Shown here: piece by piece, positions 49,608 to 54,509 of the stretch
Position numbering within the stretch: position 1 is the stretch's first letter
Layout of the letters: every line of letters begins with the position of its first letter
Source: Mameliella sp. MMSF_3455
GTDB taxonomy: Bacteria > Pseudomonadota > Alphaproteobacteria > Rhodobacterales > Rhodobacteraceae
Assembly: GCF_030733205.1 (NCBI RefSeq)
Contig: NZ_JASHJL010000011.1
Location: forward strand, 79,960-143,959
DNA length: 64,000 nucleotides
Reading direction: 5' to 3'
Notes under the pieces: generated by a model
What the model was told of the DNA's origin: nothing
What the model saw: only the letters and a program-made list of their open reading frames with translations
Databases searched by the model: none
Made by a program: the position numbers and the translations under genes

Positions 49608-49959
49608 GTGAAACAGTCCCAAGTTGCTTGTCCCGCGGCTCTCTTATCCGGCTGCTCTTGCAATAACAACGACTTGCGACATACCGCCCGGTCGGGCCCC
49701 GGCGCGGCCGCCAAATTCGGCGCCCAATCGCCGGTATACACCAGATGTAGAGAACCGATTTTATCCCCACGTCCGGCATCGCAGCAACGGATTCGCGGAC
49801 CTTGATGCCACGAACGCCGGAAATGGCCGATTGAGCCTTTTCAGGCACTTGGAGAATTCCGCGCCCTCCCAAACGTCCGGGGTTCCTTACTTTGCCGGGT
49901 TCCGGCGAGAAGCTAGACTGGGGCCAAGATTTTTTAGCGTTCAACCCTTGGAGAAAGCC
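49608..49959. other. Intergenic region between divergent dgt and the pseudoprotease gene
   Basis: These 352 bases hold no gene I can support. They must contain the leftward promoter of dgt and the rightward promoter of the gene at 49960, whose ribosome site TTGGAGAAAG is at 49949-49958. No repeats or strong hairpins stand out. Confidence 0.5.
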
Positions 49960-51087
49960 ATGTTCAGCCCCCTGCGCAGCGTCGCGTTTTGCTGCATCAC
50001 CCTCGCCCTGCCGGCGCCCGCGCTGGCCGATCTTGTCCTCGACAAGGACAGTGACCCCAAGAAGCGGATAAACGAAACCCTTGTCCTTGATCCGACGGCC
50101 AAGCCGGACAAGGACGATGGCACGATCACGATCAAGTCCAAGAACCCCACCGCGATCAATCCGGGCGCACCGCCCGCCAAGGCCCCCAATCCCTCGACGC
50201 GCCCGCCGCGCCCGAACCCGCCGGGCGGCCCGATTGTCACCCAGCCCATCAAGAATCCAGGCGCCACGCCGCCGCCCGGACCCAGCCCGGTAGAGCCGCA
50301 ACAGGCACGCAGCCCGCTGCCCACCCCGGTGCCGCCCGCAGGCAGTCCGCCACCGCGCAACGCCGGTGCCCCGATCGATCCGACGCCCTCGGTCGATGTA
50401 ACACCGGTCGAGGAAATGCCCTATATCTCCTTCGCGGCGCCGGCCTACAGCGACGGCTACGAGGTCTCGGTCATCAACAGCATGCGCGGCGCAGGCCGCA
50501 TCCGCGTGACCACGGACTATGGCCCGGTCTATTGCTCTGGCTTCGTCTTTGGCCCCTCGGTGGTGGCGACCTCCTATGCCTGCGTGCCGGGCATCCTTGA
50601 AGATCCACGCGTCAGCGCCAGCAAGATCGAGGAAATCCGCATCGTGTTCGACCACGTCTTTCCCGACCAGCGCCTGTGGACCGCGCAGGGATATGTCCTG
50701 ACCCTGGACAGCGAGCTGTCCAGCCGGGAAACCGGGCTGGCGATCCTGCACATCGCCGATCCCGACACGAAGTTCTCTGCCGACCGCATCCAGCGCGTGG
50801 GCCAGGCCACGCCCGATCCGCGCGCACCGCTCTACATGCTCAGCTTTCCGCGGGGCGGATCCATGCAGATGCAGCATTGCAGCGCGCTGCCGACGGATCC
50901 GGCCTACCTGCCCGCCAAGTCCTACGAGCACAACTGCCTGAGCGATTACGGCGACCTCGGCGCGCCGATCTACGATGCCGCGACCGGCGCGGTCGTCGGG
51001 TTGCACCTGAGCCACGAACTGTCGACCGGCCGCCGCTTTGCGCAGCACACGATCGACCTCGCGAACTGGATCGGCGACCAGCAATAA
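49960..51087 (+). CDS. Secreted trypsin-fold pseudoprotease with Pro-rich linker
   Basis: A 375-residue exported protein. Residues 1-24 are a signal peptide ending ALA-DL. Residues about 60-140 are low-complexity and Pro-rich (PPGPSPVEPQQ type). From about 150 a trypsin-like domain follows, but all three catalytic positions appear lost: the His region reads VVATSYACV (for LTNHHCV), the Asp region reads SSRETGLAILHI (for DYALLRL), and the Ser region reads CLSDYGDLGAPIYD (for GDSGSPV). The flanking Cys, the GAPIYD strand and VVGLHL are kept, so the fold is probably intact. It likely serves as a binding or inhibitor protein. A relative is at the left edge of the window. Confidence 0.75.
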   Translation: MFSPLRSVAFCCITLALPAPALADLVLDKDSDPKKRINETLVLDPTAKPDKDDGTITIKSKNPTAINPGAPPAKAPNPSTRPPRPNPPGGPIVTQPIKNPGATPPPGPSPVEPQQARSPLPTPVPPAGSPPPRNAGAPIDPTPSVDVTPVEEMPYISFAAPAYSDGYEVSVINSMRGAGRIRVTTDYGPVYCSGFVFGPSVVATSYACVPGILEDPRVSASKIEEIRIVFDHVFPDQRLWTAQGYVLTLDSELSSRETGLAILHIADPDTKFSADRIQRVGQATPDPRAPLYMLSFPRGGSMQMQHCSALPTDPAYLPAKSYEHNCLSDYGDLGAPIYDAATGAVVGLHLSHELSTGRRFAQHTIDLANWIGDQQ

Positions 51088-51603: not shown

Positions 51604-52497
51604 TCATTCGGCCGGGATGACACGGGGCCGCGACAGGTGTTCCTCGAAGACCAGCCAGAAGCCAGATCCGACCACCAGCATCACGCCCGCCCAGGTGCCC
51701 AGCGTCGGAACCTCGCCAAAGACCAGGAAGCCGATCACGACCATCCATACGAACTGCAGGTTCATCAGGGGCGTGGCGACATAGGCCGGCAGCAGGCGCA
51801 GCGCCTCGGCGACAACATAGCGGGCTGCGAAGAGGGCGGCGGCATAGGCGCCGACCCAGCCAAGGTCGGTCAGGCTCATTGGTTTCCAGACGAAAGGCAG
51901 CGCCAGCGCCATCACCACCATGAGTGCGGCATTGGGCCAGAAGACCTGTGCCAGAGGCGCACGCTCGACCTTGGCGATGGCCCGCGCGGCCAGCATCGAG
52001 CCACAGCCGGACACGGCGGCCAGCAAGGCCCAGGCATGACCGGCCTGAGCACCGGACAAACCGCCCGGCATCAGGAAGAGGATGCCGCCGACACCAAGTC
52101 CCAGAGCCGCCCAGGCCGCGGGACGCGGCGTCTCGCCCAGAACCGGGCCGGACAGGGCAGCCGCGATCAGCGGGATCAGACCGATGAACAGGAACACATC
52201 CGCGAAGGGAAGCAGGCGAAAGGCCTGAAAGAAGGCCAGCGAAGCGATCACCGTCAGCACGGCGCGGATCGCCATCGCCTTTTTCGAGCGGACCCGCAGG
52301 CCGGGTCCATTTGTGTCGGCCCGTGCCCCCGCCAGGGAGAACAGCAGAACCAGTGCCGAGGACAGGACGAAGAGCTGCGGCGCCGCATATCCGCCCGCGA
52401 TGAACTTGGTGATCCCGTCCGCGGCGGCCATCATGCCGGTGTAGACGAGGATGAGCGCCGCGCCCAGCGTCGCCCCGGAAAGCGCCACCCGGGTCAT
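51604..52497 (-). CDS. EamA/DMT family transporter in the repeat-protein operon
   Basis: A 297-residue inner membrane protein with about ten spans and two EamA repeats. Characteristic parts are ASLAFFQAFRLLPFADVFLFIGLIPLI in the first repeat with the pair-motif LGETPRPAAWAALGLGVGGI, and LLPAYVATPLMNLQFVWMVVIGFLVFGEVPTLG in the second. The ATG overlaps the stop of the 352-residue gene (ATGA), so its translation is coupled to it. In that setting it is a candidate exporter for a product of the operon, although many EamA proteins export common metabolites and chance linkage is possible. Confidence 0.88.
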   Translation of the reverse strand: MTRVALSGATLGAALILVYTGMMAAADGITKFIAGGYAAPQLFVLSSALVLLFSLAGARADTNGPGLRVRSKKAMAIRAVLTVIASLAFFQAFRLLPFADVFLFIGLIPLIAAALSGPVLGETPRPAAWAALGLGVGGILFLMPGGLSGAQAGHAWALLAAVSGCGSMLAARAIAKVERAPLAQVFWPNAALMVVMALALPFVWKPMSLTDLGWVGAYAAALFAARYVVAEALRLLPAYVATPLMNLQFVWMVVIGFLVFGEVPTLGTWAGVMLVVGSGFWLVFEEHLSRPRVIPAE

Positions 52498-53552
52498 GCG
52501 CGGCCTGCCCGGGCAAAGCCTTCGAAATAGGCGTCGAACAGATCGCTGGACTGCGAGGCAACGCTGAGCAGATCGCGCGCCTCGGGGGACAGAGACGGTT
52601 CCATCCGTGGCCGCATCCTGTCCCAGTCACCCGACCGGTGGTCCAGCCCGTAGATCGCCTGGCTCAGCTCGCGCAGGACGGTCTGGGCTCGGGCGCCGCG
52701 TTCGAACCGCAGCCGCTCATCGCAGACCGGCTTGCGGAACAGGGGCGCGCCGGTGACGGCCTGGTGCCAGTTGCACACGAGGTATTCGTGATAGTCGTCG
52801 TTGATCGAGGCATGAGCATCCGCGACGACACCGTAAGCTCCGGTTTCCTGTTGCAGCCAGGCCGTCCAGACGGCGGGCGGCATCTGTCCCGCATGGCGCA
52901 GGGCAATGCAGATTTCCGCCAGCAGGTCGGCGTTCTGGTCCAGGAAAGCGGTCAGCCCGGCGAAATGCAGGCTCTGGATGGCCTCCGGGGGCAGGTCCGG
53001 ATCGCGGCGGCCATACTCGGACAGGTAGTAGACGATGTGCGTCAATTCATAGGCGGCCTTCTTGTTCGGCAGCGCAAAGGTCTTTGTGCGCAAGCAGAAG
53101 GCACGCAGCCGATCGTTCAGGCCGGGATCGCGGATCGGATCGACGCCGCGACGGGTCATCAAGCGCCGCGCCTCGGCACGCTGCAAGTCCGAAAGTTCGG
53201 CCTCTGCCAGCCCTTCGCGGGCCGCGAAATCCACCATTTTCTGCGCCTCGTACCCCGGCATCCCGAGGTCCTCGAGATCCAGCGCCAGCGAGAGAATGAA
53301 ACGGTAGTACTGCGGAAAGAACTCCAGCCGTTGCACCGCCTGGGCGTAGAACCCCGCATGGCGGGCCAGCGCCTCTGGAGCGACGGCCTGACCTGTGCAT
53401 TCAAGGATGTTCAGAAGCTCCGCGTTCTCCTTCAGCCAGAAAACGTCGTCGCCGTGGCGGCGATGATCGGCGAAGGCTCCCAGAAGCGCGGTGATCCGCG
53501 CTTCCAGGGGGGCTATCCGGGTCGGGACGGTCAGTTGGACGACATTGTTCAT
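52494..53552 (-). CDS. Unrecognised helical protein encoded after the repeat protein
   Basis: A 352-residue soluble protein with no signal peptide or membrane span that looks almost wholly alpha-helical. I cannot assign a function. Conserved-looking polar clusters are YELTHIVYYLSEYGRRD (about residues 170-186), DLLAEICIALRHAG and DDYHEYLVCNWHQAV, which place His, Asp and Glu on helices as in a metal or substrate site; Cys residues are few. ATG at 53552 has AGAGGAG eight to nine bases upstream, so the longer form is rejected. It starts 63 bases after the repeat-protein gene and its stop overlaps the transporter start. A maturation enzyme for the repeat protein is the most interesting reading but is inference. 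Confidence 0.75.
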   Translation of the reverse strand: MNNVVQLTVPTRIAPLEARITALLGAFADHRRHGDDVFWLKENAELLNILECTGQAVAPEALARHAGFYAQAVQRLEFFPQYYRFILSLALDLEDLGMPGYEAQKMVDFAAREGLAEAELSDLQRAEARRLMTRRGVDPIRDPGLNDRLRAFCLRTKTFALPNKKAAYELTHIVYYLSEYGRRDPDLPPEAIQSLHFAGLTAFLDQNADLLAEICIALRHAGQMPPAVWTAWLQQETGAYGVVADAHASINDDYHEYLVCNWHQAVTGAPLFRKPVCDERLRFERGARAQTVLRELSQAIYGLDHRSGDWDRMRPRMEPSLSPEARDLLSVASQSSDLFDAYFEGFARAGRA

Positions 53553-53615
53553 CGCTTGGCTCTCCTCTGTCTTGGCAGAGCGCACTGCGCCCCGCCCGGG
53601 TATCAGTGACGTCGA

Positions 53616-54095
53616 TCAGGCGCGCGCCGGGCCGGACCACGAGGTGAAGGCTTCGACATTGTCGCCTGCTTCACGGTCGCCGGCTGCGGGACCGGACCAG
53701 CTGGTGAAGGCCTGGACGTTGTCGCCGCTCTCGATGTCGCCAGCCGCCGGGCCGGACCACGAGGTGAAGGCCTCGACGTTGTCGCCTGCGTCGCGGCTGC
53801 CGCGCGCCGGGCCGGACCAGCTGGTGAAGGCTTCGACATGGCCACCGTTTTCCATGTCACCCGCAGCGGGACCGGACCAAGAGGTGTAAGCTTCGACTGC
53901 ATCACCAGATTCGCGGGTACCTGTCGCCGGACCGGACCAGGATGTGTAGGCTTCGACAGAGGCACCCGCGAACAGGTCGCCATCGGCCGGGCCCGACCAC
54001 GAGGTAAAGGCCTCGACGGCGTCGCCGGCGAAGGCGCTCGTTTCCGCTTTGGAAACGGTTTCTTTAGAGGTGTGCAGCTTGATGAGGGCAGTCAT
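53616..54095 (-). CDS. Seven-repeat protein, candidate multi-core precursor peptide
   Basis: A 159-residue protein. Residues 1-20 (MTALIKLHTSKETVSKAETS) form a Lys/Thr-rich leader-like start with no signal peptide character. Residues 21-159 are seven units of exactly 20 residues (the last one residue short). Each carries EA(F/Y)TSWSGPA (QA in unit 6) preceded by a G-(D/A/G)-x-V type stretch; the five or six linker positions vary. There is no Cys. AAAGGAG eight or nine bases before the ATG is a strong ribosome site. The gene is first in an operon with a helical protein and a transporter. It could be a precursor of modified peptides, or a structural repeat protein. Confidence 0.8.
   Translation of the reverse strand: MTALIKLHTSKETVSKAETSAFAGDAVEAFTSWSGPADGDLFAGASVEAYTSWSGPATGTRESGDAVEAYTSWSGPAAGDMENGGHVEAFTSWSGPARGSRDAGDNVEAFTSWSGPAAGDIESGDNVQAFTSWSGPAAGDREAGDNVEAFTSWSGPARA
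53619..54035 (-). repeat. Seven 60-bp in-frame tandem repeats
   Basis: The coding units repeat every 60 bases without a single insertion or deletion. The stretch for TSWSGPA is nearly the same in DNA (GGACCA with CTCGTGG or GCTGGTG-type wobble changes), while linker codons differ. This shows expansion by duplication followed by selection on the core. Confidence 0.9.
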
Positions 54096-54119
54096 GGGAT
54101 CGCTCCTTTTTCAGGTTGA

Positions 54120-54430
54120 GCAGCTATGCCCTTGAAATCTGCACGCAAAAATAGTTTGCAAAAAAGTTAATTCTTGTTAAGGTTGTTTAAGGAAAAGTTT
54201 ATCCACAGATGCGATTCGCGCAGGCGTTTCGGATCGCGCGACAATACGGGTTATCCACAGATACAAATTTTCTGTGGATAAATCCGGACTTTGCAGCGCA
54301 ACGGCACTTTGCAAACTCCTAAATCCACGAATCATACCCGAATCGAGCGGGTTCCAGAGGGTGCTTTGTGCCAGGCTTTACGCCGATAGGTTGCAGGTAC
54401 GTCACAAAGCTCAACCAAACTGATACAAAA
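54120..54430. other. DnaA-box-rich AT-rich region, candidate replication origin
   Basis: Three perfect DnaA boxes TTATCCACA lie at 54199-54207 (+), 54251-54259 (+) and 54273-54281 (-). Next to them is an AT-rich tract (about 54140-54200) with TTAA at 54167, 54177 and 54187 and the near-repeats TTGTTAAGG and TTGTTTAAGG, a possible unwinding element. GANTC sites, the CcrM methylation target, are at 54213, 54329 and 54340. No gene is visible. The rest, to 54509, contains the promoter region of xthA and, on the other strand, of the repeat-protein operon. Confidence 0.55.
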
Positions 54431-54509
54431 CAGGGCTTTACCTGACGCGCTTGACCGTCAGCCCCGCGCCTGCGATCCATGGCCCCCGGACAGGCAGGAG
54501 AAACGCGCC

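Follow-up and report, generated by a model that had tools for sequence, protein, structure and literature searches.

In a 64,000-nucleotide stretch of the genome of the marine bacterium Mameliella sp. MMSF_3455 (contig NZ_JASHJL010000011.1, positions 79,960 to 143,959; this whole stretch is referred to below as the window), we analyzed a cassette of three consecutive minus-strand genes that, judging from its sequence, very probably encodes a multi-core precursor of the type found among ribosomally synthesized and post-translationally modified peptides (RiPPs), together with its dedicated enzyme. The first gene (53616..54095) encodes a 159-residue repeat protein, called the precursor below. The second (52494..53552) encodes a 352-residue protein of the Pfam family DUF6902, predicted from this assignment and from its modeled structure to be the core-modifying enzyme; it starts 63 bases past the stop codon of the repeat gene and is preceded on the same strand by GAGGAG, which resembles a ribosome-binding site (53562..53567). 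The third (51604..52497) encodes an EamA-family membrane protein (Pfam EamA, E = 1.2e-14), a possible exporter, whose ATG at 52497 overlaps the TGA of the DUF6902 gene. The spacing, the ribosome site, the helical nature of the second protein and the overlapping EamA start agree with what a sequence-only reading of the window had described as a possible peptide-maturation cassette.

The precursor has an isoelectric point of 4.15, contains no Cys and carries seven 20-residue units behind a 24-residue leader, MTALIKLHTSKETVSKAETSAFAG (54024..54095), to which related leaders with the consensus MxAQxK align in other precursors. The sequence TSWSGPA is identical in all seven units and starts at residues 31, 51, 71, 91, 111, 131 and 151, always 20 residues apart, in line with the seven 20-residue units noted from the sequence, and the array was recovered independently by Tandem Repeats Finder. 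The pentameric cores, all on the minus strand, read FTSWS at 53994..54008 (core 1), YTSWS at 53934..53948 and 53874..53888 (cores 2 and 3) and FTSWS again at 53814..53828, 53754..53768, 53694..53708 and 53634..53648 (cores 4 to 7). When all pairs of copies were compared, the seven-codon core showed 66 synonymous and no non-synonymous codon differences (147 codon comparisons), as against 41 synonymous and 112 non-synonymous differences in the nine-codon spacer (189 comparisons); the first Ser of the core, for example, is encoded in four ways (TCG, TCC, TCT and AGC). As the differences are all synonymous in the core and mostly non-synonymous in the spacer, the identity of the repeats is not due to chance, and the core is kept by selection at the protein level. 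The precursor gave no Pfam match above the cut-off and no NCBIfam match, and a search of the genome revealed no second copy, the two other matches having E-values near 0.3. The units are predicted to be disordered, and the last three, when fused to the enzyme in a model meant to show substrate docking, stayed disordered.

The second protein had been taken to belong to no recognised family, which is incorrect. It matches Pfam DUF6902 (PF21843) with an E-value of 2.7e-159 and 530.2 bits, against a cut-off of 27, over positions 1-351 of the 351 in the profile, and residues 29-245 also match DUF6895 (PF21836; E = 1.1e-22, 81.2 bits against a cut-off of 23.8, profile positions 20-253 of 289). The two families share only about 14-21% identity; Y168, H172, G181, D209 and E213 are invariant in 122 aligned sequences from both, and His255 is essentially so. 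The corresponding minus-strand codons in the window lie at 53037..53051 for Tyr168 (53049-53051) to His172 (53037-53039), at 52914..52928 for Asp209 to Glu213 (DLLAE) and at 52788..52793 for the near-invariant Tyr254-His255. The modeled protein is almost entirely helical and has matches to alpha/alpha toroids, such that a toroid-like fold is predicted; Foldseek returned helical repeat proteins, without significance. No convincing relative of solved structure was found by sequence, with two matches at chance level in one search.

To follow the pair across genomes, DUF6902 loci were collected by homology, and the best 80 of 308 (L004-L083) were read. In all 80, a repeat open reading frame lies upstream of the DUF6902 gene at a distance of 36-136 nucleotides (342 in L040); it is partly masked in L006, L010 and L065 and cut by the contig end in L004, L009, L016, L058 and L059. 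A profile search of 292 genomes drawn from Rhodobacterales found DUF6902 above the cut-off in 80, and in 81 at an E-value of 0.001. A precursor model built from 41 N-terminal pieces matched 72 of the 292 genomes at an E-value of 1e-5, and all 72 are among these 81, the two lists having been compared by hand; the 211 genomes without a DUF6902 match gave no precursor match. Of the nine DUF6902 genomes that were left, seven have repeat open reading frames that the model missed, with repeats such as STSSF (G353 and G387), SSTC (G579 and G615), MTSVA (G643), MPTSN (G645) and FVSGL with FCCSI (G664). In G508, no precursor is visible; G567, which lies below the cut-off, has a DUF6895-type enzyme adjoining a single Trp-containing peptide. 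A precursor thus accompanies DUF6902 in 79 of the 80 genomes above the cut-off, and the two proteins co-occur in related genomes; independent occurrence is what the earlier reading had named as speaking against a cassette.

Two single loci should be mentioned here. In G540 (L205, G540:C14:84900-87200), the match to DUF6902 falls into five pieces over several frames and a stop interrupts that of the precursor, so that both genes appear, from sequence, to have decayed together. Enemella is an actinomycete, and the record of L011 (JAFKDC010000021.1), titled Enemella evansiae TN21-6, is probably mislabelled, as its gene order matches that of a contig in G007, from the family of the window.

The number and sequence of the cores were compared in 106 distinct enzyme-precursor pairs, counting as copies those within one mismatch of the dominant pentamer of each precursor. 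As these counts rest on regular expressions, which fit L063 and L099/L100 poorly, and leave out copies with more than one mismatch, the 868 copies found should be read accordingly. The number per precursor ranges from 2 to 20, with a median of 8, and the repeat number therefore varies between lineages, as a multi-core system had been expected to show. There are 29 dominant pentamers, including FTSWS (18 precursors), FTSGS (18), FSSGS (16) and FTSGL (11). Of the 106 dominant cores, 104 begin with F; the second residue is T or S in 97 (V, I, M, C or P also occur) and the third is S in 99 (N, T or C elsewhere). Position 4 is occupied by G in 56, W in 27, S in 12, A in 6 and C in 5, and the residues found at position 5 are S, L, A, C, M and I, but never G or P. 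The earlier remark that the core lacks Cys is thus correct for the window and not for some of its relatives (FTSCA, FTTSC and FTNWC). In 71 of the precursors, the protein ends exactly at core position 5, and in most of the remaining 35 no more than 10 residues follow the last core. Within a precursor, the counted copies average 94% identity to the dominant core, a value that is conditional on the one-mismatch rule, whereas a dominant core is common to 76 of 2409 pairs of enzymes at 55-60% identity and to 19 of 22 pairs at 85-90%. Near-uniformity within each precursor combined with variability between lineages is the pattern expected of cores that define a product. Enzyme residues that would predict Trp or non-Trp cores were rejected, as the top positions track phylogeny and are mostly not shared by L075, L082 and L128, which are outlying lineages with Trp.

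The EamA gene follows DUF6902 directly in 62 of the 80 loci and lies 464 nucleotides further on in L076, whereas it was not found in 17 loci that keep both precursor and enzyme. No EamA match was found beside xthA in 25 genomes without DUF6902, with both flanks seen in 17 of these. The gene thus travels with the cassette but is optional, and the exporter, which had been regarded as part of the cassette, holds for 63 of the 80 loci and not as a fixed component. In the window, the cassette sits between the exonuclease-III-like gene xthA (Exo_endo_phos) and an iron-sulfur assembly gene (Fe-S_biosyn). Pfam analysis of the cassette and the neighbouring open reading frames gave, for six proteins, DUF6902/DUF6895, EamA, Fe-S_biosyn, Exo_endo_phos and HD, and none for the seventh frame scanned. 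We found no peptidase linked to the cassette, and PADLOC gave no match to a defence system. Between the Fe-S and HD genes lies a large plus-strand open reading frame (49624-51087), the last 401 residues of which have no Pfam match; relatives occur at 6 of the 80 loci.

Upstream of the precursor, at 54199..54281 (no strand assigned), are three exact DnaA-box words, the only ones in the window: TTATCCACA at 54199-54207 and 54251-54259, and TGTGGATAA at 54273-54281. Convergent boxes separated by 5-35 bases occur only once in the 5.7-Mb genome. Of 102 precursors, 75 have an exact box no more than 350 nucleotides away, and 84 have one when a mismatch is allowed, against an expectation of 0.004 per locus from a shuffle that preserves local base composition but not dinucleotides. 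By comparison, in genomes that lack DUF6902 the region upstream of xthA contains an exact box in 0 of 24 cases and a box with one mismatch in 1 of 24. In PMC6699656, TTATCCACA is one of three motifs for predicting Rhodobacteraceae origins. A replication origin was rejected as the reason for the boxes, as the window shows no skew switch; replication-linked expression of the precursor is a guess. The same upstream region (54096-54509 in the window; also L005, L010 and L012) contains TTTGCAAA, found in 18 of 102 regions, and TTAACAAGAATTAAC-like words are found in 18 of 102 with one mismatch allowed.

Thirteen loci with DUF6895 genes that fall outside DUF6902 were read, leaving out the sub-cut-off matches L102 and L103. 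Here too, a short peptide open reading frame lies upstream of the gene in 12 loci, L209 being the remaining one. These are Rhizobium sp. CF122 (L092), L093, L095, L134, L138, L204, Kitasatospora (L164 and L207), Pseudalkalibacillus (L165), Streptomyces (L166 and L167) and Cupriavidus (L208), where the peptide is uncertain; the enzyme in L138 looks truncated, and in L167, L207 and L208 a further small gene separates peptide and enzyme. The peptides have one or two units (two in L093 and L095), and the five annotated plasmid records list no lasso genes in the surrounding 6-7 kb. In Streptomyces fungicidicus (L167), two DUF6895 genes adjoin a PF00144 serine hydrolase. As the PF00144 family includes enzymes that act on D-residues, this may be a weak hint of D-residue chemistry. 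The plasmids of S. fungicidicus (L167 3833-7688) and Kitasatospora fiedleri (L207 5950-8945) both carry a short peptide, an uncharacterized protein, a DUF6895-type gene and a serine hydrolase (PF00144 in L167), an arrangement that, in sequence, looks like an undescribed peptide cluster.

Among established systems, the multi-core precursors of cyanobactins and graspetides have a leader, tandem near-identical cores and an adjacent modifying enzyme. The window cassette resembles these in its leader, its tandem cores and its adjacent candidate enzyme, but its cores are short motifs within 20-residue units and DUF6902 has no ATP-grasp, YcaO or radical-SAM Pfam match, in line with the earlier view that these known modifying classes are missing. 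A lasso, graspetide, YcaO or radical-SAM cassette was thus rejected, as no such Pfam family occurs in the three cassette genes or the four neighbouring open reading frames; nor did Pfam find a lasso cyclase (asparagine-synthetase-like) or leader peptidase among the proteins scanned. The third gene shares its EamA domain with the EamA/drug/metabolite transporters (PF00892), and its product is a likely exporter.

The closest functional precedent comes from the sister family. The reference list of a 2026 review on interlocked peptides (PMC13352647) includes a paper whose title names a lasso-peptide epimerase of DUF6895 (Shi et al., ACS Catal. 2026, doi 10.1021/acscatal.5c08590), so that the chemistry, which had been expected to be new, need not be wholly so. 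DUF6902 shares with this enzyme, as known by its title, a Pfam superfamily, and a precursor-like peptide lies beside genes of both families. DUF6902 is nonetheless a separate Pfam family, its substrate in the window would be a tandem multi-core protein, and the shared invariant residues are candidate catalytic residues. According to PMC10406935, MslH, the epimerase of the lasso peptide MS-271, has a calcineurin-like fold with two His/Asp pairs beside Ca(II) and uses acid/base chemistry to epimerize an alpha carbon in its single-core substrate, where it acts on the C-terminal residue. These pairs may serve as a model for His172, His255 and the acidic residues of DUF6902, although MslH is unrelated to it and differs from its predicted all-helical, toroid-like fold and its multi-core substrate. 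The DUF6902 protein had no Pfam match to a calcineurin-like domain; neither this fold nor others missing from the VIA list are taken as excluded. In the papers searched, the peptide family was found neither under its core motifs nor under DUF6902, and DUF6895 was named only in PMC13352647; broader searches gave no title on it.

Taken together, we favor a reading, to which we assign a probability of roughly 55%, in which DUF6902 epimerizes one residue per core of a multi-core precursor from L to D and the EamA protein is the likely exporter. Epimerization itself, proposed by analogy with DUF6895, seems to us somewhat better than an even bet. The precursor, predicted to be disordered, would be synthesized in the cytoplasm, where DUF6902 would attach to each unit around the FTSxx core. 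His172 and His255, with Asp209, Glu213 and Glu42, could form an acid/base or metal-assisted center that removes and replaces an alpha proton, a peptidase, for which no gene was found at the locus, would cut the spacers and the EamA protein would export the product. Position 4 of the core cannot be a general target, because more than half of the dominant cores (56 of 106) have the achiral Gly there, and position 2 is an unlikely one, because Pro occurs there in one lineage (L075); positions 5, 3 or 1 are hence the candidate targets. Of the maturation cassette proposed earlier, co-occurrence and varying repeat number have thus held, while the enzyme does belong to a recognised family, the chemistry need not be wholly new and a constant exporter is less well supported.

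Several points weigh against this reading and should be considered. The absence of EamA from 17 of 80 loci counts against its export step. The low identity between DUF6902 and DUF6895 and the His/Asp/Glu cluster, which would equally suit a metal hydrolase or lyase, count against its chemistry, and both would fit a RiPP-type precursor and maturase in which DUF6902, having diverged from DUF6895, performs another reaction at the conserved Ser/Thr, for example cleavage, dehydration or the formation of a crosslink or an ester. The target would then be the [TS]-[ST] pair and not an alpha carbon, as the dominance of T/S at position 2 and of S at position 3 would suggest. As both positions also accept other residues (V, I, M, C or P at position 2; N, T or C at position 3), and as the sole chemistry reported for a relative, by the title in PMC13352647, is epimerization, we regard such a reaction as possible but not probable.

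It is also conceivable that nothing is modified, the disordered repeats making up a protein with a structural or binding role and DUF6902 acting as its dedicated chaperone or partner. Repeat arrays are common in structural proteins, the units are predicted to be disordered and the Foldseek matches, although not significant, are helical repeat proteins. However, a core that varies between lineages yet is near-uniform in each precursor is unlike a structural motif conserved for the sake of its fold, the invariant Tyr, His, Asp and Glu fit an enzyme and the sister DUF6895 genes adjoin short peptides of only one or two units, which renders this explanation improbable. The DnaA boxes, exact at 75 of 102 precursors as against none of 24 empty sites and paired convergently once in the genome, could point instead to a cell-cycle element, either a DnaA-controlled gene or a DnaA-titrating site, with the repeat protein acting inside the cell and DUF6902 adjusting its activity. 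Yet boxes account for timing and not for repeats or an enzyme, and an exact box is missing from 27 of the 102 regions, such that we consider this very improbable.

A broader proposal, which we regard as rather doubtful, is that these genes represent a widespread, undescribed RiPP class of Rhodobacterales, in which a DUF6902 toroid enzyme epimerizes every lineage-specific FTSxx core (2-20 copies), a DnaA-box promoter ties expression to chromosome replication and the released, pentapeptide-like units with a D-residue act as lineage-specific signals or inhibitors. If the favored reading is right, roughly one in four of the Rhodobacterales genomes sampled (80 of 292) would make this peptide family, and acid/base peptide epimerization would extend to tandem multi-core substrates, with more than 100 natural precursor-enzyme pairs and 29 dominant cores for probing substrate tolerance. 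DUF6902 and DUF6895 would then form a single superfamily of peptide-modifying proteins, and the pathway would add a further variant to the known ribosomally made, modified peptides. Through the DnaA-box promoter, a role of the product as a replication-linked signal would become testable.
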